This document shows, one piece after another, positions 19,421-36,611 of a stretch of DNA of 64,000 nt. Origin of the DNA: Oscillospiraceae bacterium (GTDB taxonomy: Bacteria; Bacillota; Clostridia; Oscillospirales; Ruminococcaceae); contig JAFRUS010000088.1 of NCBI GenBank assembly GCA_017438745.1, forward strand, positions 1 through 64,000, in the 5' to 3' direction. Every line of letters begins with the position of its first letter. The stretch's first letter is position 1. The translations under genes were made by a program, and so were the position numbers. The notes under the pieces were generated by a model. That model was not told where the DNA came from and made no database searches. It was given only the letters and a program-made list of their open reading frames with translations.

Positions 19421-19475
19421 AATTAAAGAGTAATAAATAACGTTATGTTCTATCATTACAGAGAGGATGTTAAGC

Positions 19476-19694
19476 ATGGCAGAGATAATGGAAAAGAATG
19501 AACTGGATTATACCTGTGGACTTTCAGACGATGAATTAACTGAAAGATTCATAGCGTCAATTCGTATTGATGAAGAAATCAGAAAAATCAAAGGTTTACC
19601 AAGCGCAAGATACGATGATGAAACTAAACGTGCTTATCTTGAATACCCTGATGGGAGAATAGAATATGTTGGAAAACAAAATAAAACTACCTGA
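19476..19694 (+). CDS. Putative antitoxin of zeta-type kinase pair
   Basis: The 72-residue acidic protein starts at ATG 19476; GAGAGG sits too close to the earlier ATG 19467. It has DDELTERFIASIRIDEEIRK and a C-terminal SARYDDETKRAYLEYPDGRI, predicted as a helix followed by a beta hairpin. It overlaps the zeta-like toxin gene by 29 bp, the typical arrangement of a toxin-antitoxin pair. It does not look like the classical epsilon antitoxin; the assignment rests on gene order and size. Confidence 0.6.
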   Translation: MAEIMEKNELDYTCGLSDDELTERFIASIRIDEEIRKIKGLPSARYDDETKRAYLEYPDGRIEYVGKQNKTT

Positions 19695-20262
19695 AGTAAT
19701 TGTATTTGCGGGGCCTAATGGCAGCGGTAAATCTACTATTACCAAAATGGCTAAAACTGTTGGTAAATATATAAACGCAGATGATATTAAAAGTGCTATT
19801 CACTGTACTGACCTCGAAGCAGCTCAAAAGGCAGAAAGATTAAGAAATCTGGCGATTGATGAACATGAAGATTTTACTTTTGAAACAGTTCTTTCTACTG
19901 ACAGAAATCTTGAATTACTGAGGCGTGCAAAAAATGCCGGATACTTTATACGAGGAATATATGTTCTTACAGCAGATCCAGAGATCAATGTGGCTAGAGT
20001 TAATGCAAGAGTTGCTTTAGGAGGCCATGACGTACCTGAAGAAAAGATCATCAGTCGTTATGAACGGGCATTAAATCTTATACCTCAGCTTGTTGAAGTA
20101 TGCGATATTTTACATATTTATGATAATACTAAATTACCGTTCAGAATTTTCAAGAAAAGAAAGACAGTTTACTATCATTGGAGCAATAAATACTGGGATA
20201 AACAAGCTGTTTCCAAACTGACCGGAATACCACTGGAAAGTTTTGAAGAAATCAATAATTAA
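19666..20262 (+). CDS. Zeta-toxin-like P-loop kinase
   Basis: This 198-residue protein has Walker A GPNGSGKS at residues 16-23, NADDI (38-42, the catalytic Asp region of zeta toxins), FETVLST at about 66-72 and RVALGGHDVPEEKIISRYER, all features of the zeta/UNG1-kinase family. These enzymes phosphorylate UDP-N-acetylamino sugars and block peptidoglycan synthesis. The start at 19666 overlaps the upstream antitoxin-like gene, implying translational coupling. A housekeeping kinase of the same family cannot be excluded. Confidence 0.8.
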   Translation: MLENKIKLPEVIVFAGPNGSGKSTITKMAKTVGKYINADDIKSAIHCTDLEAAQKAERLRNLAIDEHEDFTFETVLSTDRNLELLRRAKNAGYFIRGIYVLTADPEINVARVNARVALGGHDVPEEKIISRYERALNLIPQLVEVCDILHIYDNTKLPFRIFKKRKTVYYHWSNKYWDKQAVSKLTGIPLESFEEINN

Positions 20263-21970: not shown

Positions 21971-22010
21971 AAAAAACACGCATCCGTTTGATTACGGCTG
22001 CGTGTTTTTT
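21971..22010. terminator. Terminator of the radical SAM operon (bidirectional)
   Basis: AAAAAACACGCA and TGCGTGTTTTTT flank an inner CCGT/ACGG stem. On the minus strand it gives a stem followed by six T, 3 bp beyond the end of the last operon gene. Confidence 0.9.
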
Positions 22011-22012
22011 AA

Positions 22013-23332
22013 TCAGATAATATTCGGAACGATCCCGTGTTTGATGTGATTACGGTAGAAAACATTCACTCCGAAATAGAACATGGATGTAAACGGACGG
22101 ATGAGGAAATTTCTTGTAAATATCGTCCGCTTCAGTATGCACCTGTAGGAGTAGACTTCGTTGTACAGATCCCAGTAGGCTTTTGTAAGCTGTTCAGGGG
22201 TCATGTTTTTCGGGTAGTGTACCGCTTCACATGAATTGTACGAGTACATATCAGTGTTATAGATGCGGTCCTGCTTTTTCATTTCATCGTAATACTGGGT
22301 TCCCGGAATCGGAGTTAAAATGTAGAAGCGCGGAACGGTTATATGGTTCCGTTCAACAAATCCGGCAGTTGCTTTGATCGATTCGAGTGTGTCGCCTTCC
22401 GCACCTACCACCATTTCCGTTGAAATGTCAATGCCGTGCTTTCGTATTGTTTCAAGCTGGCGGCTGTATCTGTCCGGATGTGCCCATGCTTTCTGCATGC
22501 CGACAAGACTTTCACGGCTTATGCTTTCAAGTCCGAAGCTCAGTACGTAGCATCCGCTGTCATGAACAGCATTAAGCAGTTCTTCGTCTTCAGCGATGTC
22601 GATGGAACACTGCGTCATCCATTTCATTTTCAGTTTCCTTATTTCATTACAGAGCTCCAAAGCGTAGTCGCGGTTTGAAAAGAGGTTGTCATCGAGAAGG
22701 AGAAACTGTCTGAAACCAAGTTCCTTTACCCGTTTTATATCCCTGATCACGTCAGGAATGCTTCTTTTGAGATACTGACCGTGGTAGAGACAGTAGATGG
22801 AGCAGAAACTGCATGTCTTCGGGCAGCCTCTTCCGGCCTGAACGGGGAGAAAGTTTCCTATTTTTTTGTTTAACAGGAGTTCATAGCGCGGAAGAGGCGT
22901 TACCAGTTCGGTGAGTTTCTTCCGGTATGTTTTTTTCAGCGTACCGTTCAGATAATCATTTATCATTTCGCCCCAGGTTTCCTCGGCATCGCCTATCATA
23001 ACCGCATCACAGTATTTCTGAGCTTCCTCCGGCATGAGAGAGACCATATATCCGCCGAGGATAACAGTCTTTCCGAGTTCACGGAATTTTTTTGCGATGT
23101 CGATTGTTCTCATAACAGCATGACCCATGCTGCTGATGCCGATGAGTTCAGCATCGGTGTCGAACGGAACGTTTTCGATGGTTTCATAGCACAGATCCAC
23201 TTCAAAATCATCAGGAGTGAGTGCGGCAAGAAGAGGGAGGGCCAGACCGACAAAGTAGAGCCTTTTCTTTTTTACAAGGTTGCCGTACTGATCGTATGGT
23301 GTAGGCTGTATGAGCAATATTTTCTTTTTCAT
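22013..23332 (-). CDS. B12-binding-type radical SAM enzyme, cluster member 5
   Basis: The 439-residue protein has an N-terminal cobalamin-binding-like Rossmann domain (MKKKILLIQPTPYDQYG, LIGISSMGHAVM, VILGGYMVSLMPEEA) without the DxHxxG histidine, and a radical SAM core with C170-x3-C174-x2-C177 (GRGCPKTCSFC). Downstream segments STEMVVGAEGDT and LTPIPGTQYYDEM are typical of the family. It is the last gene of the operon, 17 bp after the previous stop, and is more distant from the other four copies, resembling HpnJ-like proteins. Reactions in this family include C-methylation, ring contraction and C-C bond formation; the substrate is unknown. Confidence 0.85.
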   Translation of the reverse strand: MKKKILLIQPTPYDQYGNLVKKKRLYFVGLALPLLAALTPDDFEVDLCYETIENVPFDTDAELIGISSMGHAVMRTIDIAKKFRELGKTVILGGYMVSLMPEEAQKYCDAVMIGDAEETWGEMINDYLNGTLKKTYRKKLTELVTPLPRYELLLNKKIGNFLPVQAGRGCPKTCSFCSIYCLYHGQYLKRSIPDVIRDIKRVKELGFRQFLLLDDNLFSNRDYALELCNEIRKLKMKWMTQCSIDIAEDEELLNAVHDSGCYVLSFGLESISRESLVGMQKAWAHPDRYSRQLETIRKHGIDISTEMVVGAEGDTLESIKATAGFVERNHITVPRFYILTPIPGTQYYDEMKKQDRIYNTDMYSYNSCEAVHYPKNMTPEQLTKAYWDLYNEVYSYRCILKRTIFTRNFLIRPFTSMFYFGVNVFYRNHIKHGIVPNII

Positions 23333-23349
23333 TTTTCCCCCTTGTTTTA

Positions 23350-24702
23350 TCAGAAACTGAAGAGGCGTTTCAGCCTGATCAGAAGTACCTTTAAAATAAA
23401 CAGTGTGCTTTGAAAATAATTATTCTCACTGTAGAGCGGAGAGTTTCTGTTCTTCCACGCAAGCTTCAGTGACAGCCTGTAGTACTGGAATGTGAAAGCT
23501 GCGGTACTCATGTGTTCGGGTTTCAGAAGGCAGTGGAACAGATCCTGTTTTGTAACGTCGTCTGTAATGAGTTTTCCTTCGTATTGTTTGTAGACAGCTG
23601 ATCCCTGCATCGGAGTGAATACTGAAACAGTCGGAATAATATCCTTCTCGGCTATCCATTTATAAAGCCGGTCGAAATCTGCTTTTTTCATACCCTGATG
23701 AACGATGAAAAGTCCCGCACAAAGGATATTGTTTTCACTGAGTATACGTATGCATTCAAGGTTTTCATCTGCAGTTGTGTGCTTGTTGTAGGATTCGAGT
23801 TCTCCGTCATCAGCTGATTCAAGGCCTACCATGACAAGAGCAAGACCGATACCGGCAAGTTCCTTCATGATGTCAGCGTTCTTTGCTATAAAGTCTGCTC
23901 TGCCGTAGATGAGATATTTTTTATGAATATCCTTTTCCTTTATGAGCCGGATAAATTCCGTGAGGTATTCACGGCTTACGAGAAAGTTGTCATCGGTAAT
24001 ATGTACGTTCGGCACGTCAAGTGATGCAATCTCGTTTACAAGGCTTTCAGCGCTTCTGCATGCGTAGTGTCCGCCGTTACGATTGGTACAGAAACAGAAA
24101 CTGCATTTCATCGGGCAGCTGAAGGAGTTCTTGACAAGTGCAAGAGGTCTGAAGCAGAGGTAACGGAAATGTTTCCGGTTACTGTAGAAAAAGCTTCTGT
24201 CCGGAACGGGAAGGGATTCAGGGCTCTCATTCACTTTAGGATTTGCTTTCCATGAGCCATCCCTGCGGAAACATATTCCCGGAATATCATCCGGTGAGCC
24301 TTTTTCCTCAATGCATTTTAATAGCTTTACAAGATTGTCAAGTCCGCTGAGATGATATAGATAATCGGCTTCCGATCCGAAGTAGTTTTCGTAATTGATC
24401 TCCACATTGGAGCCGCCGAGTATCACTTTTATATGCGGGTCGTATTTCTTTATTTCACTGCAGAAACGTATCATGAGTTTCTGCTGGGTGATGTATCCGG
24501 TTATGCATACAACATCGGGTCTCTCTATTTTCAGTTTCTTTCTGAGCGATGTGATGTCGTATCGTCTGTCCCAGATAACAGCTTCATGACCGTTGTTTCT
24601 GAAAGCGGTGAAGAGATATTCCATTTCAAGAGGTTCGTGATCAACCAGATTGGTGAAACTGAAAATCCCGACAGTCTCAGGTTTGATAAGAAGTATTTTC
24701 AT
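23350..24702 (-). CDS. B12-binding-type radical SAM enzyme, cluster member 4
   Basis: The 450-residue protein has the same two-domain plan: Rossmann-like N-terminus (MKILLIKPETVG, CITGYITQQKL, VILGGSNVEINYENYF) and radical SAM motif C196-x3-C200-x2-C203 (FSCPMKCSFCFC), with LVMVGLESADDGELESYNKH later. It is paralogous to the products at 24707, 26031 and 27365, sharing the YNKxT-xxEN and GLFV blocks. The gene starts 4 bp after the preceding stop. No cobalamin-ligating His motif is visible, as in many relatives that bind the cofactor base-off. Substrate unknown. Confidence 0.85.
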   Translation of the reverse strand: MKILLIKPETVGIFSFTNLVDHEPLEMEYLFTAFRNNGHEAVIWDRRYDITSLRKKLKIERPDVVCITGYITQQKLMIRFCSEIKKYDPHIKVILGGSNVEINYENYFGSEADYLYHLSGLDNLVKLLKCIEEKGSPDDIPGICFRRDGSWKANPKVNESPESLPVPDRSFFYSNRKHFRYLCFRPLALVKNSFSCPMKCSFCFCTNRNGGHYACRSAESLVNEIASLDVPNVHITDDNFLVSREYLTEFIRLIKEKDIHKKYLIYGRADFIAKNADIMKELAGIGLALVMVGLESADDGELESYNKHTTADENLECIRILSENNILCAGLFIVHQGMKKADFDRLYKWIAEKDIIPTVSVFTPMQGSAVYKQYEGKLITDDVTKQDLFHCLLKPEHMSTAAFTFQYYRLSLKLAWKNRNSPLYSENNYFQSTLFILKVLLIRLKRLFSF

Positions 24703-24706
24703 GGCA

Positions 24707-26029
24707 CTATTTTTCTTCAGAGCCGTTGCGGTATTTCCTGTTGAACAGGTCAGTGATACCGGCCCAGTAGATACGCGGATAGTTTACGTAGTAGAGAAAA
24801 TCAAATTCCATTTTGAAAAGGAGCATCGGCAGTTTTGAAGGCTTTATTAAAATGCTCGTTCCGCCGGTGCGTTTGTATTTGTACTTGTACAGTCTGTCCT
24901 TGTTTTCCTCGTACATTGCAGTTCCTTTGAAAGGAATGAGAATGCTGAACAGCACCCAGATAAGTTTTTCATCGCGTATGAACCTGTTTATCGCCATGAA
25001 ATCTTTATGTGTAAAATCGTAGTTTATAACGAAGAGTCCGACACAGACCATATTGTGCCTGCGCAGGATACTGATCGCCTGTCTGTTGAGATGAACGCTT
25101 GAATTCTTGTTGTATTTTTCGAGAGTAGTATCCTCGACGGCTTCCAGTCCGACAAGCATGTCACGGAAGCCTGCTTTGTAGATAAGCGGCATGATATCGC
25201 GGCAGCGAACTATACTGTCGGCTCTTGCAAATATCATAAACGTCTTTTTGCATCCGAGTTCCAGAAGCTTTCTGCATATCCGGATGACACGTTCACGGTT
25301 TACAAGAAAATCATCGTCTATAATGAATATTTTATCGTTTTTTATACTCATTATCTCTTCAATGATCTCTCCGTCCTCACGTTCCCTGTATGTGCAGCTG
25401 TTGAACTGACGGGAAATGCAGAAATTACACTGCTGCGGACATGAGAAAGAAGTTTTCATTACTGAAAAACATCCCTTGGCAAGAACGCGGAACTTGTCTT
25501 GGTTGTCATAGAAATGGCTTCTGTCCGGAAAAATTCCGTAGCTGTTTACCGGTTCACCTTTCGGATTAGCCACCCATTTTCCGTTCAGACGAAATGCGTG
25601 ACCGGTGCATTTTTTCATAACCTCAGGCCTGAAATCGCCGCGTACAGCTTTGCGGAAAGAATCAAGACCGTTGTCGTATGAGAGAAAGTCTATACCTTTT
25701 TTCATGAAATCACGGTAGTTGATTATAACTTCGGGACCTCCGACCATGATCTTTACCTTCGGGCGGGCGGCACGCAGCTTTGCTATAAGTTCAAGTACGT
25801 ACCATGCAGTATTGGAAATAACGGAAAACCCGACGAATGTAATTTTATAACGGTCTATCTTTTCAAGAAGACGGCGGAAACGTCCGAACGGACCCTCGAT
25901 GCCCTCGTCATGTATCCAGCATTCTCTTCCTTCAGCTTTGACACATGCCATGAGATATTCGAGACCGAGAGGCTCAAGACTGGCTACACGGGTGTCATAG
26001 TGGACACGGACAAATAAATATCTTTCCAT
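24707..26029 (-). CDS. B12-binding-type radical SAM enzyme, cluster member 3
   Basis: The 440-residue paralogue has MERYLFVRVHYDTRVASLEP at the N-terminus, IMVGGPEVIINYRDF in the Rossmann-like domain and C197-x3-C201-x2-C204 (FSCPQQCNFC) for the 4Fe-4S cluster; DMLVGLEAVEDTTLEKYNKN follows. The gap to the upstream gene is one base, so translation is coupled. It is closest to the product of 26031-27368, with which it shares the SLEPLGLEYL and VNGF/VNSY-PDR blocks, suggesting a tandem duplication. Confidence 0.85.
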   Translation of the reverse strand: MERYLFVRVHYDTRVASLEPLGLEYLMACVKAEGRECWIHDEGIEGPFGRFRRLLEKIDRYKITFVGFSVISNTAWYVLELIAKLRAARPKVKIMVGGPEVIINYRDFMKKGIDFLSYDNGLDSFRKAVRGDFRPEVMKKCTGHAFRLNGKWVANPKGEPVNSYGIFPDRSHFYDNQDKFRVLAKGCFSVMKTSFSCPQQCNFCISRQFNSCTYREREDGEIIEEIMSIKNDKIFIIDDDFLVNRERVIRICRKLLELGCKKTFMIFARADSIVRCRDIMPLIYKAGFRDMLVGLEAVEDTTLEKYNKNSSVHLNRQAISILRRHNMVCVGLFVINYDFTHKDFMAINRFIRDEKLIWVLFSILIPFKGTAMYEENKDRLYKYKYKRTGGTSILIKPSKLPMLLFKMEFDFLYYVNYPRIYWAGITDLFNRKYRNGSEEK

Positions 26030-26030
26030 A

Positions 26031-27368
26031 TCAGAACCAGCCTTTCTTCATTGTGTCATAACCGGTACCGGTGAGTGTACGTGTCATGATCTTCGGGTAG
26101 GTGATGAGGTGGAGCGCATAGTAGCGGAGCATGAATTCGACGGATGACATGTTCTCGGGTTTTATTGTTATATGGGTTCCGTCAAGCCTCCATGACCTGA
26201 AGTTTATGAGCTGATCCCTGTACTCATCATATGCGTCAGTACCTTTGTACGGAGTGAAAATTCCGAAAACTACCCACAGAAGATTGTTCTCCTTTATAAA
26301 CTTCAGAAGATTGCTGAAATCTTTGCGTGTTGCAGTATGGCTGATAACGAAAAGTCCGTTGCACGCAATGTGGTTTTTATGAAGATTGCGTATGGCTGCG
26401 ATGTTTTCTTCTCTGGTAGTCTGCTTGTTGTAGTCGGTGAGCTGGTCATCTGTAATAGCTTCAAGACCGACAAGAATATCACGGAATCCTGCCCGGTAGG
26501 CGAGGGGAAGAACCTCCGGATGTTCAGCAAGGAAGTCGGCACGGGAATATGCCATAAAGTTCTTTTTTATTCCGCGTCTGATGACCTCGCGGCAGAAAGC
26601 TGTAACACGGTCTGTGTCGAAGAAGAAGGTGTCGTCTACAAACCAGATCCTGTCGTGTCTGATTTCCTGTATTTCATCGACAACTTCCATGATGTTTCGT
26701 TCAGTGTATTTTCCGCTGTTCATTTTTGTGCAGTAGCAGAAGCTGCAGCGGAACGGACATGAGAAGGAAGCTTTGCTGAGCGCGTACTTTCCTTTCATGA
26801 AGATGAAGTTCTTTTTAAGACCCTTGTAGAATGCAGTCCTGTCAGGCTTTACGATGAATCCGTTCACCGGAGCCCCTTTTTTCTTTACGATCCAGCCTTT
26901 GTCACCGCGGTAGCATATGCCGGTCTGACGGGAAAAAACTTCTTTGGTAAGCCCTTCGGTCCAGATATTTTTAAGTGTGGCAAGTCCGTTGTCGTGGTAA
27001 ACAAGATCAGTATACTTTGTACAGAAATCACGGTAGTTAAGTTCTGCTTCCGGACCGCCTACCATGATAAATATTCCGGGAAATCTCTGCTTGAGCTGAT
27101 ACGCGCGGAGTTTTATATAATCCACTGTGTTTGCATTTGAATTGAATCCGATGAAATTATATCCGCCTTCCTCAATGATCCGGCACATTCTTTCAAAACG
27201 GAATGTCCACGGATACTGGAATTCATCATGAATGCGGCATTCTATGTTAAGTTCATTCGCAAGTCCTGCGAGGTATTCGAGTCCAAGCGGTTCAAGATTT
27301 GCAACTATGGAAGAATATTTCGGCCTTATAAGAAGGACTTTAAGCTTTTTTTCTGCCTTTTTCATCAT
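26031..27368 (-). CDS. B12-binding-type radical SAM enzyme, cluster member 2
   Basis: The start is placed at 27368 because GGAGGC lies just before an ATGATG there and the ATG overlaps the TGA of the upstream gene; the frame is open to 27470 but that part lies inside the neighbour. The 445-residue product has MVGGPEAELNYRDF in the N-terminal domain and C204-x3-C208-x2-C211 (FSCPFRCSFCYC). It carries DILVGLEAITDDQLTDYNKQ and a C-terminal ITIKPENMSSVEF segment shared by its paralogues. Presumed 4Fe-4S/SAM enzyme with cobalamin-type domain; substrate unknown. Confidence 0.85.
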   Translation of the reverse strand: MMKKAEKKLKVLLIRPKYSSIVANLEPLGLEYLAGLANELNIECRIHDEFQYPWTFRFERMCRIIEEGGYNFIGFNSNANTVDYIKLRAYQLKQRFPGIFIMVGGPEAELNYRDFCTKYTDLVYHDNGLATLKNIWTEGLTKEVFSRQTGICYRGDKGWIVKKKGAPVNGFIVKPDRTAFYKGLKKNFIFMKGKYALSKASFSCPFRCSFCYCTKMNSGKYTERNIMEVVDEIQEIRHDRIWFVDDTFFFDTDRVTAFCREVIRRGIKKNFMAYSRADFLAEHPEVLPLAYRAGFRDILVGLEAITDDQLTDYNKQTTREENIAAIRNLHKNHIACNGLFVISHTATRKDFSNLLKFIKENNLLWVVFGIFTPYKGTDAYDEYRDQLINFRSWRLDGTHITIKPENMSSVEFMLRYYALHLITYPKIMTRTLTGTGYDTMKKGWF

Positions 27369-28729
27369 CTGCCTCCAATCAGTTTTTTCCAGTACTGAGT
27401 GTTCACTTTTGCTGCGCCCCAGGTAAGTTTGAGCGTGTCGTGAAGTCCGTACTTCTTTATCATATACCATGCGCTTACAGGATTTGCAGTGATTTTATAG
27501 TAGAGCACCATGGTGTACCAGTAATAGCGTCGTACGGAGATCTTATCAGGTTTTACAACAAGATGCGCAAGATCCCATTTTTCGTATTCATCTTCCCGGA
27601 CAATAAAGCGCGGACGGTATTTATCATAGAGTTCCGTGCCGCGCAGAGGTGTCAGCGGCTGCAGATTTACAAAAACAAGACCGAGTTTTTTTATCCAGCG
27701 ATAAAGTGCATTAAAGTCTTCCTTTGTCCAGTCCAGACCGAGAATGAAGGTGCCGTAGCATTCAACACCGTACTTTGACAGTATGCTAACTGCTTTTTCG
27801 TTTATATTAACATTGGTGCGCTTGTTGTAGTCATCGAGCTGACGTGAGTCGCATGATTCGAGTCCGACGATGACTGCGCGCAGACCGACCTGCTTGAAGC
27901 GACTGATCACATCTTCGTTGGCTGCAATAAAGTCAGCTCTTCCGTAGATGAGATATTTTTTCTCTATGCCGTTTTTTTCGAGCATATCGCAGAACTGAAG
28001 TATACGTTCACGTCCCACGAGAAAGTCATCGTCAACGATGTAGATCTCGGTTTCCTTTATCTGAGACAGTTCATTTACTATATCGTCAAGAGACCGTGCA
28101 AAATACTTGTCGTCCATGATCTGACGGCAGAAACAGAATTTACAGTTGTAAGGACAGCCGAATGAAGTCTTGATAAGGCTGCAGTTACGGTGAAACATGT
28201 AGTAGTAATGTTTACGGTATTTACTGACCTTGTTTCTGTCCGGATAGAGGTAGGGGAATGTAGTTTCCTTTTCCGGAGCCGGTTTGTCCCTGTGATAAAT
28301 GCAGTCTATATCACCAGCCGGGGTCTTTCCTTCGAGACTGTCAAGTATTTCGGTAAATGTACGTATACCGTTTGCACGTATGATGAAGTCAACGTATTCT
28401 GATTCAAAATCCTGCGGGTTTACTTCTGCGTGAACACCGCCGATTATCGTTTTGATACGGCTGTCGCAGAGTTTGACTTCGCGGGCGTACGATTTCATTA
28501 TATTAACATGCGAGATATATCCGGTTATACCCACAACGTCAGGATGAAATTCCTCCACGAAGTACCGGACACTTTTCTTTTCTATTATCATGTCAATGAT
28601 TCGGCATTCGTGTCCGGCAGCTTCAATGTTTGCAGATATGTATTCGAGTTCAAGCGGCTCACATATCATGACGTTCTGAAGTCCGATCGTTTCCTTGTCC
28701 GGTCTTGGCCTGAAAAGCAGTACTTTCAT
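27365..28729 (-). CDS. B12-binding-type radical SAM enzyme, cluster member 1
   Basis: The 454-residue protein has MKVLLFRPRPDKETIG, VVGITGYISHVNIM and TIIGGVHAEVNPQDFES in the N-terminal Rossmann-like domain and C192-x3-C196-x2-C199 (FGCPYNCKFCFC) in the SAM barrel. It is the first of the five radical SAM genes, 50 bp after the FemAB-like gene; the upstream AATGAGGTAATT is a plausible ribosome site. The C-terminal 120 residues (AHLVVKPDKISVRRYYWYTM) are shared with members 2-4 and may shape the substrate or carrier site. Confidence 0.85.
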   Translation of the reverse strand: MKVLLFRPRPDKETIGLQNVMICEPLELEYISANIEAAGHECRIIDMIIEKKSVRYFVEEFHPDVVGITGYISHVNIMKSYAREVKLCDSRIKTIIGGVHAEVNPQDFESEYVDFIIRANGIRTFTEILDSLEGKTPAGDIDCIYHRDKPAPEKETTFPYLYPDRNKVSKYRKHYYYMFHRNCSLIKTSFGCPYNCKFCFCRQIMDDKYFARSLDDIVNELSQIKETEIYIVDDDFLVGRERILQFCDMLEKNGIEKKYLIYGRADFIAANEDVISRFKQVGLRAVIVGLESCDSRQLDDYNKRTNVNINEKAVSILSKYGVECYGTFILGLDWTKEDFNALYRWIKKLGLVFVNLQPLTPLRGTELYDKYRPRFIVREDEYEKWDLAHLVVKPDKISVRRYYWYTMVLYYKITANPVSAWYMIKKYGLHDTLKLTWGAAKVNTQYWKKLIGGR

Positions 28730-28779
28730 AATTACCTCATTGATTTCTCCGTCGTTCAGAAAAGCTGACCGTGCGGAAG

Positions 28780-29784
28780 TTATTTGCTGAAAACCTTGTG
28801 ATCAGGAAAGCTGTATCTGTATTCGAGAATGCGTTTTCCTGCCATGGCAAAAAGATTGAGAAAAATATTTGTGTGATGAGCGCAGAAATAGCGTCTGTTA
28901 AGCAGGGCGCCGAACCTCAGCTTTGTTGTTTCCGAAGTCTGACCGAAATCAACGGTACGGCATCCGTTCTGTATTGCGTATTCCACGATCTTGAAGAGCA
29001 TAAGGAAGTAGAGATCAGCTGTTTCATAACGGTAGTCCATGCCGCAGAGCATGAATACCAGCTCGCAGCCGTTCCTTTTCAGAAGAACGAATCCCGTCGG
29101 TTCGCCGTTTCGTAAAAACAGGATCCTGTCGCCCTGCACACGGTCAAAGAATGCTTTTTCAAGACATTCGAGTTTATAGTCAGAACGTTCAAATGTCTGA
29201 AGATAGAGCGGATGAACGTCTGTGCTTCCGTCGTGGATCAGTTTTACAGTTATATCACTGCATCTTTTCAGTGCCAGATTTATACGCCTTCTGTATGCGC
29301 TCCTCATGGAAGCAAGATAGTCGTCAGTGCTTTTAATATTTTCCGGTATTGTCAGGACACATGACGGAAGAGTTTCGCCGTTTGCCATGCCTCTGACTTT
29401 TACCTGTTCGGGAATATTGAGCACCAGCTTGCATCCGCGTATGGTCTTTATGTATTCAAGCATCATTATAATGTCGTTTGTTATGTATCCGCCTGTGCTG
29501 AGTGAACAGGGAAATGCTATCGTCTGGATGTTCATGAAAAATTTAGCTTTTCCAAACGTGAAAAGATCCATGCGGTTAAGATACATGGTGAAGAAAGCAT
29601 ATTTTTCACCGCATTCCAGAAAATAATATTTCTGCGGCAGAGGATTGGCTGTTCTTAGAAGAGTAAGCATTTCCTGCGTGAAAGGCCACGGAAGCTCCGA
29701 TTCCGGAAAGTCTTTTCTGATGGCAGAGCTTTTTCGCATTATTCCGAATATTTCTTCCGGAGACTCACTGATGCTCACTTTCAT
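28780..29784 (-). CDS. FemAB/GNAT-like acyltransferase
   Basis: The frame is open to 29877 but overlaps the upstream gene by 89 bp; ATG 29784, 4 bp after that stop, is the most economical start (29808 is an alternative; neither has a strong ribosome site). The roughly 334-residue protein has two GNAT-like halves; the second has FLRNGEPTGFVLLKRNGCEL and TADLYFLMLFKIVEYAIQNG, then VDFGQTSETTKLRFGA, characteristic of the Acetyltransf_6/FemAB-like families that transfer acyl or aminoacyl groups. In context it may transfer the acyl chain from the ACP to an amine or sugar acceptor. Confidence 0.7.
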   Translation of the reverse strand: MKVSISESPEEIFGIMRKSSAIRKDFPESELPWPFTQEMLTLLRTANPLPQKYYFLECGEKYAFFTMYLNRMDLFTFGKAKFFMNIQTIAFPCSLSTGGYITNDIIMMLEYIKTIRGCKLVLNIPEQVKVRGMANGETLPSCVLTIPENIKSTDDYLASMRSAYRRRINLALKRCSDITVKLIHDGSTDVHPLYLQTFERSDYKLECLEKAFFDRVQGDRILFLRNGEPTGFVLLKRNGCELVFMLCGMDYRYETADLYFLMLFKIVEYAIQNGCRTVDFGQTSETTKLRFGALLNRRYFCAHHTNIFLNLFAMAGKRILEYRYSFPDHKVFSK

Positions 29785-29788
29785 GTCA

Positions 29789-30877
29789 TTATTTAATGTC
29801 TTTTTCATATACAGTATATTTTTTATACGTTTCATCGCAGAGAGCCTTGCAGAAACTGTTTGAGTCCGTGTTTTCATCGAGGATCCAGGAAGTTTCCATC
29901 TGTACGCATCCCTGTTTTTTCATTGAGTCGTAAACGTGCTTTATAAGTGCCATCGGAAGTCCGGAAGACCGGTATTCTTTAAGTACTCCGTATTCCATTA
30001 CCTTGCCTGTTCTGATGCTCTTTCCTTTAAGAAGGTTAAGGAAAAAATGTTTCGTTCCGAATGCTTCTCCCGGGGCGGCTAGTTCGTTCCAGTCGGGATA
30101 CCACATGATAAAACCGACCGGTTTGCCGTTGTGATAAGCGAAAACAAGAGAATTCTCCTTCATGAACAGGAAAAGAGTTTTCAGCATTTCGCAGTCATCT
30201 TCATAGCAGCGTTTATAGTAGTAGCGGTGTTCCGTAAAGCATGAGTTGTTAAGATCAGTATAGATCTTTGCATATTCGGTGAACCTGCTTTTGTCGAAAC
30301 AGCGGAATTCGTATGAACGTTCCAGTTTTGCGATGAGTCTGTCAAAACGTTTAAGGCGGTCATCGAGCTTTGAAGTGAAGTATGAACTGAGTCCGGTCTC
30401 GCTGCAGCCAAGACTGCGGAAGTAGTCGTTGTAGTAAGCAGGATTGCCCGGGGATGAGAAGGAATTCTTCTTTTCAAAATGGGAATCAAGAAGGCCGAGT
30501 CCGTAGTTGACATGGCCGTAAAGACCGATGACGACCTTGCTGCATCCGTGTTCCTTTCCGATTTTCTCAGTTTCACGGACAAGCATTTCTGCTGCGTCAG
30601 CTCTGTCAGGCAGAGATTCGAAAAAACAGAGCTGTATGTATTCCGGAAGCTCCTTTGTATAAGCTGTGATCCCGCAGCAGATTATCTCCCCGTTTTCAGT
30701 TACCATGAGGGGACAGACGGACATGTTTTTGATGAAATTCAGTTTCCCCGAGAAGATCTCCTTAAGCATATAGTAGTTGTTGTCAACATAAATACCCTGA
30801 CCGGAATACAGCTTTTTCCTGAAGTCAAGAAGCCTTTTCTGAAGAGCTCTGCTGTCTGCTCTGATAACTTCTGTCAT
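29789..30877 (-). CDS. GNAT-family acyltransferase
   Basis: The 362-residue protein has a C-terminal GNAT fold: SLVFAYHNGKPVGFIMWYPD (beta 4), KVMEYGVLKEYRSSGLPMAL (the acyl-CoA/ACP pyrophosphate loop R-x-x-G-x-A variant) and MKKQGCVQMETSWILDENTD. The N-terminal half resembles a second, degenerate GNAT lobe. The start overlaps the ACP gene's stop by four bases (ATGA), showing translational coupling. With its neighbour it provides two acyl-transfer steps for the ACP-bound product; the acceptor is unknown. Confidence 0.75.
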   Translation of the reverse strand: MTEVIRADSRALQKRLLDFRKKLYSGQGIYVDNNYYMLKEIFSGKLNFIKNMSVCPLMVTENGEIICCGITAYTKELPEYIQLCFFESLPDRADAAEMLVRETEKIGKEHGCSKVVIGLYGHVNYGLGLLDSHFEKKNSFSSPGNPAYYNDYFRSLGCSETGLSSYFTSKLDDRLKRFDRLIAKLERSYEFRCFDKSRFTEYAKIYTDLNNSCFTEHRYYYKRCYEDDCEMLKTLFLFMKENSLVFAYHNGKPVGFIMWYPDWNELAAPGEAFGTKHFFLNLLKGKSIRTGKVMEYGVLKEYRSSGLPMALIKHVYDSMKKQGCVQMETSWILDENTDSNSFCKALCDETYKKYTVYEKDIK

Positions 30878-31104
30878 CTTTTCTGTCCTGTCAGTTTTTC
30901 AAGAAGAGCACTCATTTCTCCGACTGTATTCAGATGACGGTATTCTTCTTCTTCGATCTCAATCCCGAATTCCTCTTCGGCAATACACAGAAGGTTCATA
31001 AGGTCGAAGGAATTCAGTCCGAGATCTGTCTTGAAGTTCATTTCCGGTGACAGATTATTTATTCCGTACTCTTTTGAGAGCAGTTTTTTTATTTCATCAA
31101 ACAT
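30874..31104 (-). CDS. Acyl carrier protein
   Basis: The 76-residue acidic helical protein has DLGLNSFDLMNLL, in which the Ser is the expected attachment point for 4'-phosphopantetheine, followed by the acidic helix III region EEEFGIEIEEEEY. Size and pattern fit a free-standing ACP. It overlaps the ligase stop by 8 bp and the GNAT start by 4 bp, so it is made together with them. It is not beside fab genes, which argues for a dedicated secondary-metabolism or modified-lipid carrier. Confidence 0.9.
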   Translation of the reverse strand: MFDEIKKLLSKEYGINNLSPEMNFKTDLGLNSFDLMNLLCIAEEEFGIEIEEEEYRHLNTVGEMSALLEKLTGQKR

Positions 31105-32662
31105 ACAGGTTTCTCCTTATCTTTTTTGAGCTGTTTTTTTCAAATCCTGTTTTCATTATTTCATGTTCGTCGATATGCATGTAATCAGGAAGCTCAGCGT
31201 TTATACGTTTTATGTCTTCAGAAAGCGTCTTTCCGTCCTCGTTTTCCTTTAAGACGATAAGAGCCTTGATAACTGCCGTTTTACCGGAACGAGAGGGGAT
31301 CACCAGTGATTCCGAAACGTAAGGCAGCTTTGCGAGTTTTGCTTCAAGATATTCAGGCGGGACGTTTTTACCGTTTTCAGTTATAATTAGATTTTTTTTG
31401 CGTCCCGTTACGAAAATTACCCTGCCTTCTGTATAGCCGATATCGCCTGTGGCAAAATACCCGTCATGCATACAGGCATCAGTCGCTTCTTTGTTTTTGT
31501 AGTATCCGAGCATGACGTTCGGACCTTTTACAAGTATTTCACCGTCATCTGCGATTTTTACATCTATGTTTTTCATTATGGTTCCGGCACTTCCGGTTAC
31601 GTTGTTTCCGGTTCTGCTGACGGCGATGGTAGGGGAGCACTCGGTGAGTCCGTAACCGTTGAGTATGGTAATTCCCAGATCTCCGAATTTGTCAACCAGA
31701 TCGCTGTTAAGTGCGGCACCGCCGTTTACGACAAGCCGCAGCCGTTTGTTTATGAAGTTACCGAAGAAGATATGCCTTAAGTCTATTTTAAATTTCAGAA
31801 AGAATCTGCTTACTGCGACCATGCGGGCAAAAGCTTTTTCCTTTCCGCGGCGTTTTATCTCACGCATAATACCGTCGTACATTCCTTCTATGACCATAGG
31901 AACAGCCCCGAAGAAGAAAGGGTCGAAGGTTTTGATGTCACGCATAAGGTACTTAAGCTGAGTGCACAGACAGAGTGTTGTCCCGTTATAGAGTGTTGCG
32001 AGCATACACGGGTTGAATCCGTATGTGTGGTTCATCGGAAGAAACGCCAGTGTCGGATTTTCAAGAACATTGTTTTCAAGTGTGCCGCGGACGTTTACAA
32101 TAACGTTATACTGGCTGAGCATGACACCTTTTATGTTTCCGTCAGTTCCGGAAGTTGAGGCAAGCACTGCAAACCTGTCCTTGTCAGTGCATGAGGCGCT
32201 TTTAAAAAATTCCGTAACAGAAGATTCTTTTTCGAGAACTGAACGCAGTTCAGTGTCGGTATTTACTTTTGTTACGGATGTATCATGTATTTTATCTGCT
32301 GTTTTGTCAGTACAGAAGACAAGATCTGTATCAAAGTCGTCAAGGCATTTTAAAAGTGTTCCTGAGTCAAGCTCGCGGTCGAGCGGAATAATGACATTGT
32401 CAAGAACTGCAGCAAGATAAATAACAATGTATTCATAGCGGTTTTCGGAGACGACCGCTATGTGTTTGCCTGAATAATCATTTTCACGAAACCAGCTGTA
32501 CAGCGAAGCGACGTGTCCGGTAAGCTCCCGGTATGTTATATCAGTAATTCTGCTGCCTGACATAAAGCGGACGGCGACATTGTCAGAACTTGTTTCGTAC
32601 CGTCCTTTCAGCATTTCATAAAAGCTGTCATAAATGACTGTATCAAGATATGGATAGTCCAA
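31097..32662 (-). CDS. Acyl-AMP ligase (AMP-binding enzyme, FadD-like)
   Basis: The 521-residue enzyme has the adenylation motifs STSGTDGNIKG (A3, a variant of TSGTTGxPKG), NGYGLTECSP (A5), YFATGDIGY (A7), GRKKNLIITENGKNV (A8) and a C-terminal KNSSKKIRRN whose Lys fits A10. It should activate a carboxylic acid as acyl-AMP and pass it to the adjacent ACP. The start codon is TTG, nine bases after GGAGGA; no ATG fits. It is the first gene of the nine-gene operon. Fatty acid is the likeliest substrate, by motif resemblance only. Confidence 0.85.
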   Translation of the reverse strand: MDYPYLDTVIYDSFYEMLKGRYETSSDNVAVRFMSGSRITDITYRELTGHVASLYSWFRENDYSGKHIAVVSENRYEYIVIYLAAVLDNVIIPLDRELDSGTLLKCLDDFDTDLVFCTDKTADKIHDTSVTKVNTDTELRSVLEKESSVTEFFKSASCTDKDRFAVLASTSGTDGNIKGVMLSQYNVIVNVRGTLENNVLENPTLAFLPMNHTYGFNPCMLATLYNGTTLCLCTQLKYLMRDIKTFDPFFFGAVPMVIEGMYDGIMREIKRRGKEKAFARMVAVSRFFLKFKIDLRHIFFGNFINKRLRLVVNGGAALNSDLVDKFGDLGITILNGYGLTECSPTIAVSRTGNNVTGSAGTIMKNIDVKIADDGEILVKGPNVMLGYYKNKEATDACMHDGYFATGDIGYTEGRVIFVTGRKKNLIITENGKNVPPEYLEAKLAKLPYVSESLVIPSRSGKTAVIKALIVLKENEDGKTLSEDIKRINAELPDYMHIDEHEIMKTGFEKNSSKKIRRNLYV

Positions 32663-32716
32663 TAAAGTATCCTCCGTGGTTTCGTAAAAGAAATCATTTG
32701 CTTTCTCTGTTATTCT

Positions 32717-32745
32717 ATTATATAATAATATTAAAAATAAGTCTA
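32717..32745 (-). promoter_or_regulatory. Promoter of the nine-gene radical SAM operon
   Basis: On the minus strand TAGACT (32745-32740), 17 bp, TATAAT (32722-32717). The -35 box is weak (TAGACT against TTGACA), which allows activator control or low basal expression. It lies about 55 bp before the TTG start. Confidence 0.65.
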
Positions 32746-33214: not shown

Positions 33215-33451
33215 ATGTCAGCATTACAGTTACAGGCTTATGAATTAATGGGAAAACTGAGTGAAAGTAAGCTTCAGCTTATCATTGAAATTATGAATGG
33301 TTTTATAAATACCGCAGATGAGGGAAACAATGAAGTGGTAAAAGAAAGAAGACCTATAGGTATGTTTGAAGGCGAGAAATTCCTTGCTGATAATTATGAT
33401 ATTGACGATGATAATGATGAAATAGCTGCTATGTTTGGAGTAAGTGAATGA
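33215..33451 (+). CDS. Antitoxin of PIN-domain toxin pair
   Basis: The 78-residue acidic protein starts behind GGGAGGGATG. The N-terminal half (LQAYELMGKLSESKLQLIIE) is the helical segment found in many small clostridial antitoxins that precede PIN toxins; the C-terminal half has RRPIGMFEGEKFLADN and a run of Asp/Asn residues, a flexible acidic tail suited to wrapping a toxin. Its stop overlaps the toxin start by four bases (ATGA). It probably also represses the promoter upstream. Confidence 0.75.
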   Translation: MSALQLQAYELMGKLSESKLQLIIEIMNGFINTADEGNNEVVKERRPIGMFEGEKFLADNYDIDDDNDEIAAMFGVSE

Positions 33452-33852
33452 GAATTCTACTGGATACACATATAATATTATGGGCAATGAACGGAAATAA
33501 TGAACTGTCCGGAAATGCAAGAGAATTAATATCTGATCCTTCTAATGATGTTTTTTACAGTATAGCATCTGTATGGGAAGTAACAATTAAACATATAGCA
33601 CATCCCGATAAAATGATGATAACAGGTGTGCAGTTCAGTGAAAACTGTAAGAAGATGGGCTTTGCAAAGCTATCAATCAGAGAAGAGCATATTGTATTGC
33701 TTGAAAACCTTAGAAGAGCGGAGAATTCCAAACCTCATAACGATCCTTTTGACAGATTACTTATATGTCAGGCTAAAGCAGAAGGATTAAGATTTATGAA
33801 GCATGACAGTCTAATACCTGATTATAATGAAGAATGTGTGCTTTCTGTTTAG
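33448..33852 (+). CDS. VapC-type PIN-domain ribonuclease toxin
   Basis: The 134-residue protein has the PIN-domain acidic set: LLDTHIILWAM (D6), ASVWEVTIK (Glu near 43), NDPFDRLLICQAK (two Asp near 98-101) and a C-terminal MKHDSLIPDY. PIN toxins cleave tRNA or rRNA when free of antitoxin. It overlaps the antitoxin gene by four bases. The two-gene unit with its promoter lies between two identical 37-bp repeats. Confidence 0.85.
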   Translation: MRILLDTHIILWAMNGNNELSGNARELISDPSNDVFYSIASVWEVTIKHIAHPDKMMITGVQFSENCKKMGFAKLSIREEHIVLLENLRRAENSKPHNDPFDRLLICQAKAEGLRFMKHDSLIPDYNEECVLSV

Positions 33853-34910: not shown

Positions 34911-36611
34911 ATGAAAAGAATAATCTCAGTTCTGACGGGACTGTGTATGCTTACAGCATCCCTGTGCGGACCTGCGGCGAACATCGCATATGCTGTAGAT
35001 TTTGACGTGCCTGAAGGGTGGGTGCTTATAACAGAAAAGTCAGGTACCTGCGGCGATAATATTACATGGCTGCTCGAAACAAACGGGACACTGACCATCA
35101 GCGGATCAGGAAAAATGTACGACTATGACTTTGATAACCGGCCTCCATATTTAGATCGCTATTCTCCTAACGTTAGGAATATCATCGTTCAGGGAAAGGT
35201 GACACATATCGGAAACTATGCATTCTATGGATGCGAGAGCGTAGAAACTGCGACCATTCCGGACAGTGTTACAAGTATCGGCGATCATGCATTCGATCGC
35301 TGCAGCCGCATGACCACGTTCAATATCCCGTCCAAAGTGACAAGTATCGGTGAGAGTGCTTTTCGTGGTTGCAAGGTTCTGCCCGCTGTGACGATTCCGA
35401 AGGGTGTGACGGTCATCAATGACCATTCTTTCTGTAGTTGCGAGCGTCTGACCTCCTTGAAGATCCCTGATGGTGTTACAAGCATCGGTGAAAGTGCTTT
35501 CTTTGGCTGCAAGAGCCTGACTTCCGTAGCCATACCGGAAAGTGTTACAGTTGTCAAGGGTGGTTGTTTCCTTGAGTGTACAAACCTAAAAACCGTGAAT
35601 CTCCCGAAAAGTATAGCATACATTGGAAATTCGACTTTCAAAGGATGCACGAATCTGACTTCTGTGACCATTCCGGACAATGTGGGATGGATCGGAAGCT
35701 ATGCTTTCAATAAATGTACTAGCCTAAAGTCTATGAGTATTTCTGAAAATATTTATATGATCGGGAATTCGGCATTCTCACAATGTCCGAACCTTACTGC
35801 GATAAATGTTTCTGCCAATAATGAGAAATATACCAGCGTTGACGGAGTCGTCTATTCCAAAGATAAAAAAGATCTTGAGTATTATCCCGGTGGTAAAAAA
35901 GGCGCATTTACCGTTCCGTCAACTGTGAAGACCATTAAGCGTGAGTCTTTTTATGGCTGTATGGGTGTGACTTCAGTGACCATTCCTGAGAATGTGCGAT
36001 TCATCGAGGAATATGCTTTCCGTGAATGTGGAAACATGACTTCTGTGTTTATGTCGGATTCTTTTAATTGGATACAGGAGGGAACGTTCGCGGACTGCAC
36101 GAGTCTGACATCCGTGACCTTACCGGATGAAATGAAATATATTGATAAACTTGCTTTTTCAGGTTGCTCTAGTCTGACCTCTGTGACGATCCCGGAAAGT
36201 GTGACAAACATCGGAAAAAGTGCTTTCGAGAACTGCCGGAAACTGAGCTCTGTCAGAATTCTGAATCCTGATTGCAAAATATATGACGACGCAAGCACTT
36301 TCACTACCGCTAAAGATATTTTCATTGGCGTTTTCCGCGGCTACGAGGGCAGTACCGTACAGGAATATGCCAAGAACTATGAGCGTAGATTTGCAGTTCT
36401 TGAAGAGGAGAAATTCGCACTCGGTGATCTGAACGGCGACGAACATATCGACGTAACAGACATTACAATTCTTTCTACGCATCTTCTCTGCGATAAAAAA
36501 ATGAAAAGAGCAGGACTTAAGGCAGCCGACGTTGACAGCGACGGAGAAGTTGCGCTTACAGACCTTGCAAGACTCAGACAGTATGTTTCAAAGATAATTA
36601 CTGAGTTCTGA
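34911..36611 (+). CDS. Secreted LRR_5 protein with C-terminal dockerin, second copy
   Basis: The 566-residue paralogue of the 13984 protein has the same signal peptide start (MKRIISVLTGLCMLTASLCG), the GTCGDNITWLLETNGTLTIS domain and about 17 LRR_5 repeats, and a dockerin from about residue 505. The first loop D-L-N-G-D-E-H-I-D-V-T-D has Glu in place of Gly, the second D-V-D-S-D-G-E-V-A-L-T-D is regular, the reverse of the deviation in the paralogue. Exported and presumably cohesin-bound. It is served by the same promoter block but has a longer leader containing the WYL fragment. Confidence 0.9.
   Translation: MKRIISVLTGLCMLTASLCGPAANIAYAVDFDVPEGWVLITEKSGTCGDNITWLLETNGTLTISGSGKMYDYDFDNRPPYLDRYSPNVRNIIVQGKVTHIGNYAFYGCESVETATIPDSVTSIGDHAFDRCSRMTTFNIPSKVTSIGESAFRGCKVLPAVTIPKGVTVINDHSFCSCERLTSLKIPDGVTSIGESAFFGCKSLTSVAIPESVTVVKGGCFLECTNLKTVNLPKSIAYIGNSTFKGCTNLTSVTIPDNVGWIGSYAFNKCTSLKSMSISENIYMIGNSAFSQCPNLTAINVSANNEKYTSVDGVVYSKDKKDLEYYPGGKKGAFTVPSTVKTIKRESFYGCMGVTSVTIPENVRFIEEYAFRECGNMTSVFMSDSFNWIQEGTFADCTSLTSVTLPDEMKYIDKLAFSGCSSLTSVTIPESVTNIGKSAFENCRKLSSVRILNPDCKIYDDASTFTTAKDIFIGVFRGYEGSTVQEYAKNYERRFAVLEEEKFALGDLNGDEHIDVTDITILSTHLLCDKKMKRAGLKAADVDSDGEVALTDLARLRQYVSKIITEF

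Follow-up and report, generated by a model that had tools for sequence, protein, structure and literature searches.

Among the cobalamin-dependent radical S-adenosylmethionine (SAM) enzymes, HpnR is a C-methylase and CysS, TokK and TsrM are methylases, BchE is a cyclase, OxsB is a ring-contracting enzyme, and AprD4 and HpnJ are non-methylases. Methylation is the commonest reaction of the class, with OxsB, BchE and HpnJ among the few exceptions (PMC13142503; see also PMC13331322). Here we describe an operon encoding five such proteins, r1 to r5, together with an acyl-AMP ligase, an acyl carrier protein (ACP), a tandem GNAT acyltransferase and a Fem-like transferase. It occupies positions 22013-32662 of a 64,000-nucleotide stretch of contig JAFRUS010000088.1 (assembly GCA_017438745.1) from an Oscillospiraceae bacterium, a Ruminococcus-like inhabitant of the gut, hereafter the window, and consists of nine intact open reading frames (ORFs) on the minus strand in the order ligase, ACP, GNAT, Fem-like, r1, r2, r3, r4, r5 (Table 1). 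With HpnR, BchE, OxsB and TokK/CysS the window proteins share B12-binding and radical SAM domains, an intact CxxxCxxC motif and an N-terminal cobalamin-type domain, and they are similar in length to HpnR and BchE; the locus differs in having five paralogues in one operon. Its parts are of known kinds, and their combination is uncharacterised as far as the open-access literature shows: we found no relevant paper there, in line with an earlier note on this DNA, which knew of no characterised pathway that combines them. The cluster represents a conserved but unstudied clostridial pathway, which probably builds and C-methylates an acylated amine-type molecule.

The argument rests on relatives of the cluster, taken as the 51 loci recovered by an r1 scan of genome contigs, with counts restricted to those having enough flanking sequence (35 loci, or 38 for r5). 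Most of the 51 lie in metagenome-assembled genomes (MAGs) of rumen Lachnospiraceae, and the rest in Acetivibrio, Defluviitaleaceae, Epulonipiscium, Alkaliphilus, Sedimentibacter and others. The GNAT is present in 35/35 informative loci, the Fem-like protein in 33/35 and r5 in 36/38; in one of the two exceptions for r5 (L036) the gene is split into two ORFs, and the other, a small MAG (L046), yielded no r5. Seven additional loci from a survey of 398 genomes of the phylum all carry the GNAT, the Fem-like protein, a class I methyltransferase, r1 and r5, without an orthologous ligase-ACP pair, and the same is true of an Acetoanaerobium locus. The constant core of the pathway is therefore the GNAT, the FemX-like protein, r1 and r5. 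With the same order of genes repeated across tens of loci, a chance arrangement is excluded.

Around this core the gene content varies. Complete clusters hold three to five radical enzymes. In a FastTree phylogeny of the paralogues, r1 and r5 each form their own well-supported clade in every lineage and r2 and r3 are sisters; other lineages have an r4-like paralogue (r4') and a further one, r6, in place of the r2-r4 set. The class I methyltransferase occurs in 11/35 informative loci. Deeper clades have it instead of the ligase and ACP, and some of these also carry FeeM-type and phosphatidylserine-decarboxylase homologues. The best-conserved protein is r5, with 59-92% identity to the window copy and a mean column identity of 80%, compared with 54% for the GNAT and 38% for the Fem-like protein. 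This conservation, and the constancy of r1 and r5, suggests that these two enzymes perform the constant chemistry and that r2-r4 are add-ons. The earlier note had set r5 apart as a more distant fifth member; it does form a separate subfamily, but its conservation speaks against a peripheral role. A termite-gut Oscillospiraceae locus (L058:3932-13367) has its r4-like and r1 genes in pieces and two adjacent r5-type genes, where decay, sequencing errors or recoding are possible. Three others (L039, L047 and L049) carry, between the r6-type radical SAM gene or genes and r5, an inserted ABC-type ATPase, a CobW/HypB-like GTPase and an iron-sulfur protein (PF04060), which might serve metallocentre or corrinoid activation.

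The ligase and ACP behave differently from the core. The ligase belongs to the ANL superfamily, with adenylation signatures and the lysine of the C-terminal catalytic loop kept in 28 aligned sequences, and it matches no equivalog model of NCBIfam; the ACP keeps its phosphopantetheine serine in 29 aligned sequences, as a carrier protein should. The two always occur as a pair, in 23/35 informative loci, and are absent beside the core in the other 12. For 15 loci without a detected ligase, a whole-genome search at E<=1e-60, to be read with the incompleteness of MAGs in mind, gave no match in 12 genomes; one further genome has a true orthologue, located at the edge of a contig, and the remaining two have only ligases with 36-37% identity. 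Because the pair is missing from 12/35 relatives, mostly without a close copy anywhere in the genome, radical chemistry on a chain bound to a dedicated ACP is not the general logic of the pathway. The earlier note had proposed exactly such stepwise chemistry, which is at best lineage-specific. It had also let its case hang on the ligase and ACP accompanying the radical SAM genes; relatives that keep those genes without the pair argue against the pair as a general part, whereas the GNAT, the Fem-like protein, r1 and r5 stay together.

What the radical enzymes do can be approached through their family placement. Pfam finds Radical_SAM (PF04055) in all five proteins (E 3e-10 to 2e-16) and B12-binding (PF02310) at E 1e-7 to 5e-19, the match of r2 being marginal (31.9 against a cut-off of 32.1). 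All five keep the CxxxCxxC motif intact, and it does not vary among homologues; together with the predicted N-terminal cobalamin-type domain, this motif places r1-r5 in the cobalamin-dependent radical SAM superfamily. As the earlier note had it, r1-r4 are clear paralogues: r2-r4 are 28-34% identical to r1, and a search of the genome against itself gives E 2e-57 to 4e-80 for r2-r4 and 9e-15 for r5. Orthologue assignment by NCBIfam failed, every radical SAM model scoring far under its cut-off. The top sub-cut-off family for r1-r4 is HpnR (TIGR04367, cut-off 650 bits; r1 178, r4 147, r3 120, r2 112 and r5 60 bits), and the second is BchE (TIGR02026, cut-off 481 bits), at 94-133 bits for r1-r4 and 77-133 bits overall. 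The families nearest to r5 are ApyD, PhpK and HpnJ (89, 86 and 86 bits against cut-offs of 750, 600 and 578), and the ladderane radical SAM model TIGR04072 gives 45-72 bits against 360. When a profile of r1-r4 and their relatives was compared with solved structures, the best match was OxsB (7e-17, model positions 32-335), and AprD4, CysS, TokK and TsrM also matched, with weaker matches of the N-terminal part to corrinoid proteins. To the extent that sequence profiles can tell, these matches support a genuine cobalamin-type domain, yet they mix methylases with non-methylases. We favour C-methylation because the C-methylase HpnR is the top family, methylases are among the structure matches and most known members of the class methylate. 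Of the outcomes that the earlier note had listed, C-methylation thus still appears likely, and ring formation or C-C coupling remain candidates.

A different reading of the same relationships is that the radical enzymes form rings or make other carbon-skeleton changes on a carrier-bound acyl chain, as do BchE, OxsB, HpnJ and the proposed ladderane enzymes, with no methylation. The second rank of BchE for r1-r4, the position of OxsB as best solved match and the similarity of r5 to HpnJ and AprD4 all fit this, and BioC and BchM, O-methylators working ahead of carbon-chain or ring chemistry, are the closest, if weak, matches of the class I methyltransferase found in relatives. Ladderane clusters likewise join an ACP, a class I SAM methyltransferase and radical SAM enzymes (PMC9821293). 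The window shares the ACP and radical SAM enzymes with the ladderane-type clusters of type II fatty acid synthesis in anammox bacteria, and its relatives share the methyltransferase; however, the nine genes include no ketosynthase, dehydratase or desaturase, as a cluster of that type would, and they do include a GNAT and a Fem-like protein. The family scores all lie far under cut-off, and a dedicated ACP is lacking in the 12 relatives mentioned above. We regard ring or skeleton chemistry as rather unlikely, although it stands close behind C-methylation of an acylated product, given the place of BchE and OxsB among the closest relatives and the parallels with ladderane clusters.

The two transferases are informative chiefly through their folds, which we compared because sequence searches against solved structures gave no significant match for either protein. 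The AlphaFold2 (AF2) model of the GNAT, with a predicted local distance difference test score (pLDDT) of 92.9, has a tandem GNAT fold, and its best match is MAB_4324 (Z 23.6, root-mean-square deviation (rmsd) 3.4, 299 residues), with a clostridial glucosamine N-acetyltransferase and mycothiol synthase (Z 22.1) among the others. Its likeness to mycothiol synthase and other tandem GNATs lies in the overall fold (Z 21-24), at only 11-15% identity. The model of the Fem-like protein (pLDDT 91.7) has the fold of FemX, MprF and the aminoacyl-tRNA-dependent peptide synthases (Z 16-19, 8-17% identity). It is best matched by Sba18, an aminoacyl-tRNA-dependent peptide synthase of streptothricin biosynthesis (Z 18.6, rmsd 3.4, 257 residues); FemX itself gives Z 17.8 and rmsd 4.5 over 279 residues, which establishes the dual-GNAT FemX fold, and MprF a Z of about 16. 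Unlike FemX, MprF and the streptothricin synthases, the window protein has no wall-precursor, phosphatidylglycerol or streptothricin context. These confident models and the Pfam searches bear out the earlier gene identifications, including the GNAT and FemAB-like calls. Enzymes with tandem GNAT and FemX-type folds mostly make amides or transfer aminoacyl groups.

Some relatives hint at the kind of molecule involved. In L079-L081 (three genomes, two families), r5 is separated from an r4-like enzyme by genes for a small GNAT-fold protein and for a homologue of phosphatidylserine decarboxylase. The small protein of L080 matches FeeM (PF21926; 43 bits against a cut-off of 27), and L079 and L081 have apparent counterparts. 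FeeM enzymes couple acyl-ACP to an amino acid. In the two genomes checked, a further decarboxylase homologue is encoded outside the cluster, which makes the cluster gene an additional copy. In an Alkaliphilus MAG (L060), a set of AMP-ligase, ACP, ketosynthase and non-ribosomal peptide synthetase (NRPS) genes begins about 360 bp downstream of r5, possibly by coincidence. Together with the window's own ligase-ACP pair these loci suggest acyl transfer onto an amine, and none of the features is universal. The window resembles N-acyl amino acid pathways of the FeeM type in having an acyl carrier and a GNAT-fold N-acyltransferase, and some relatives of the core encode a FeeM homologue; it differs in lacking FeeM (both window transferases match other Pfam families), in the other, tandem type of its GNAT and in its five added radical enzymes. 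Ceramide synthesis of the bCerS type, which also joins an acyl-ACP synthetase, an ACP and a GNAT, was rejected: the nine genes include no serine palmitoyltransferase-type gene, and the search of open-access papers gave none on it.

These loci also bear on whether the product is peptide-like and without a fatty chain, the ligase loading an amino or aryl acid, the Fem-like enzyme adding units from aminoacyl-tRNA, the GNAT capping and the radical enzymes C-methylating. The streptothricin synthases matched by the Fem-like model and the NRPS and polyketide synthase (PKS) genes adjoining L060 are in keeping with this, as is the frequency of B12 radical SAM methylases in such pathways. The FeeM-type and decarboxylase homologues of other loci indicate acyl or lipid chemistry instead, and the flanks of the relatives' loci contain no conserved transporter, exporter, regulator or resistance gene; we think a peptide unlikely. 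Big PKS/NRPS genes follow the core cluster at about 360 bp in an Alkaliphilus MAG (L060:13088-20952 and L093), where the linkage may be accidental.

At the lipid end of the range, the radical enzymes could couple acyl chains by C-C bonds into membrane-spanning (diabolic-acid-type) or cross-linked lipids, in the manner of Tes or Mss. Diabolic acids are a known trait of Butyrivibrio, a label borne by two of the carriers, and rumen Lachnospiraceae make up many of them. Mss is a membrane-spanning lipid synthase that couples fatty acids (PMC11868695). What these systems offer for comparison is enzymes that join acyl or isoprenoid chains, with Tes relying on radical SAM chemistry; the window has different partner genes, and chain coupling requires no dedicated pair of GNAT and Fem-like enzymes. 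A Tes-like identity of r1-r5 was looked for, and no Tes chain came up in PDB searches with the profiles of r1-r4 (to E 5) and of r5 (to E 0.01), in a library whose inclusion of Tes was unconfirmed. The analogy drawn in the earlier note finds no sequence support in this comparison, which was aimed at Tes, and we consider such lipids very improbable.

A Citrobacter portucalensis plasmid (L084:12432-23818; NZ_CP134684.1 52126-63512) carries a GH3 acyl-adenylase, five r5-like B12 radical SAM proteins, a GNAT-like protein, a PAP2 phosphatase and a fatty acid desaturase. Unique among PLSDB plasmids, it looks like an independent lipid-type counterpart, with an acyltransferase that has no detectable homology to the window's. 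In a congener (G006, L082:4126-12853), an r4-like radical SAM gene lies beside an AMP ligase, a PlsC-type acyltransferase, a CDP-alcohol phosphatidyltransferase, a thiamine pyrophosphate enzyme resembling phosphonopyruvate decarboxylase and an NTP-transferase/Fe-alcohol dehydrogenase fusion; these genes may together form a phosphonolipid cluster.

We tentatively propose a model, perhaps somewhat short of probable, in which an acylated molecule resembling an amino acid, or an aminolipid, is put together by the cluster and C-methylated by its radical enzymes, while the ligase and ACP provide a loading route peculiar to their lineage. In the lineage of the window, the ligase would adenylate a carboxylic acid and load it onto the dedicated ACP; in others, acyl groups could come from general metabolism or, in some, be handled by a FeeM-type N-acyl-amino-acid synthase. 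The core would then act, the tandem GNAT transferring an acyl group to an amine, the FemX-like enzyme attaching an aminoacyl unit, possibly derived from aminoacyl-tRNA, and r1 and r5 carrying out two obligatory radical steps, most likely C-methylation of unactivated carbons. Further modification steps may fall to r2-r4, and elsewhere to r4', r6 and the class I methyltransferase, and the number of modifications on the acylated small molecule or aminolipid would follow the number of paralogues. Several points weigh against this model. Profile comparisons put a cyclase second and a ring-contracting enzyme first among solved matches for r1-r4, and r5 resembles the non-methylases AprD4 and HpnJ. 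Sharing a GNAT or Fem fold does not fix donor or acceptor. The FeeM and decarboxylase genes are found in few loci and could be local additions, both product and methylation are inferred, as are the amide chemistry and the order of steps, and no linked transporter or regulator points to where the product is located.

If true, the model describes a conserved anaerobic pathway with several cobalamin radical SAM enzymes in series, in which substrate order, methylation versus cyclisation and the role of cobalamin in non-methylases could be compared within one operon, and a hitherto unrecognised metabolite or lipid would be defined for Lachnospiraceae of the rumen and related bacteria of the gut. 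Because clusters with three, four or five radical enzymes exist in nature, each step could be assigned by direct tests, and named carrier strains (Lachnospiraceae AB2028 and G41, Acetivibrio mesophilus N2K1 and A. alkalicellulosi DSM 17461) make testing practical. That a single conserved clostridial operon, itself moving horizontally, holds five cobalamin radical SAM enzymes should be noteworthy to specialists. More speculatively, and with more doubt than confidence, the products may belong to a new family of aminolipids or acyl-amides carrying multiple radical modifications, assembled under anaerobic conditions by a GNAT-FemX pair and three to five cobalamin radical SAM enzymes, with horizontal spread among rumen and gut Clostridia and a modification pattern set by paralogue number.

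The window operon is itself a derived, horizontally acquired form of this Bacillota pathway. Among 298 sampled genomes of the family, r5 occurs in the window's own only; ten other congeners yielded an r1 of 99% identity in one case and a distant r4-like gene in one case. In a quick tree of r1, r5 and the GNAT, supported by SH-aLRT values only, the window pairs with an 'uncultured Ruminococcus' MAG within a Lachnospiraceae clade. This rarity in the family and nesting among rumen Lachnospiraceae indicate acquisition, and a GC content of 0.44 in the cluster versus 0.385 in the rest of the window is a weak supporting sign. Plasmid carriage of the true cluster was rejected: the sole r5 orthologue in PLSDB is on a record of Acetoanaerobium noterae (L087; NZ_CP154629.1), which bears the core cluster and, at 2.6 Mb, is filed as a plasmid and is probably a chromosome.

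The layout is compact, as first noticed, with junctions ranging from overlaps of a few bases (several) to one gap of 50 bp. Of the shared promoter and single terminator in the original description, the terminator stands, a hairpin directly past the r5 stop codon with a folding energy of -20.7 kcal/mol, z -5.1 and six terminal U. A single promoter for the nine genes is plausible from a consensus match, in a region where such matches are no more numerous than in shuffled sequence. The genome carries a cobalamin riboswitch; riboswitch or other RNA control of the operon was rejected, as Rfam models matched neither the 20-35 kb part of the window nor four relatives.

Table 1. Features of the operon, in window coordinates
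Feature	Coordinates	Strand	Description	Evidence
Promoter-like site	32717..32745	-	TAGACT-17-TATAAT	Consensus scan only
Ribosome-binding site	32670..32675	-	GGAGGA, 5' of the lig TTG start	Sequence reading
lig	31097..32662	-	Acyl-AMP ligase, 521 amino acids, TTG start	Pfam AMP-binding 177 bits, E 5e-52
acp	30874..31104	-	Acyl carrier protein, phosphopantetheine serine in GLNSFD	Pfam PP-binding 41 bits, E 2e-10
gnat	29789..30877	-	Tandem GNAT acyltransferase	Pfam Acetyltransf_1 E 5e-10; AF2 model
fem	28780..29814	-	FemX/MprF-fold transferase, ORF open to 29877	Pfam Acetyltransf_6 E 2e-7; AF2 model
r1	27365..28729	-	B12-binding radical SAM enzyme, invariant core paralogue	Pfam; own clade in paralogue tree
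r2	26031..27368	-	B12-binding radical SAM enzyme, optional paralogue	Pfam, paralogue tree, locus counts
r3	24707..26029	-	B12-binding radical SAM enzyme, optional paralogue, sister of r2	Pfam, paralogue tree, locus counts
r4	23350..24702	-	B12-binding radical SAM enzyme, optional paralogue	Pfam, paralogue tree, locus counts
r5	22013..23332	-	B12-binding radical SAM enzyme, separate subfamily, best-conserved cluster gene	Pfam, column identity, tree, locus counts
Terminator	21971..22010	-	Intrinsic hairpin, A-rich 5' side, possibly bidirectional	Fold energy; 3' arm ends UUUUUU

Near the operon, two small gene pairs (33215-33852 and 19467-20262) resemble, by their translations, toxin-antitoxin modules, with a PIN/VapC-like and a zeta-like P-loop protein. 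Further along, at 34911-36611, the translation predicts a leucine-rich-repeat protein that ends in a dockerin-like C-terminus of the kind typical of cellulosomal Ruminococcus.

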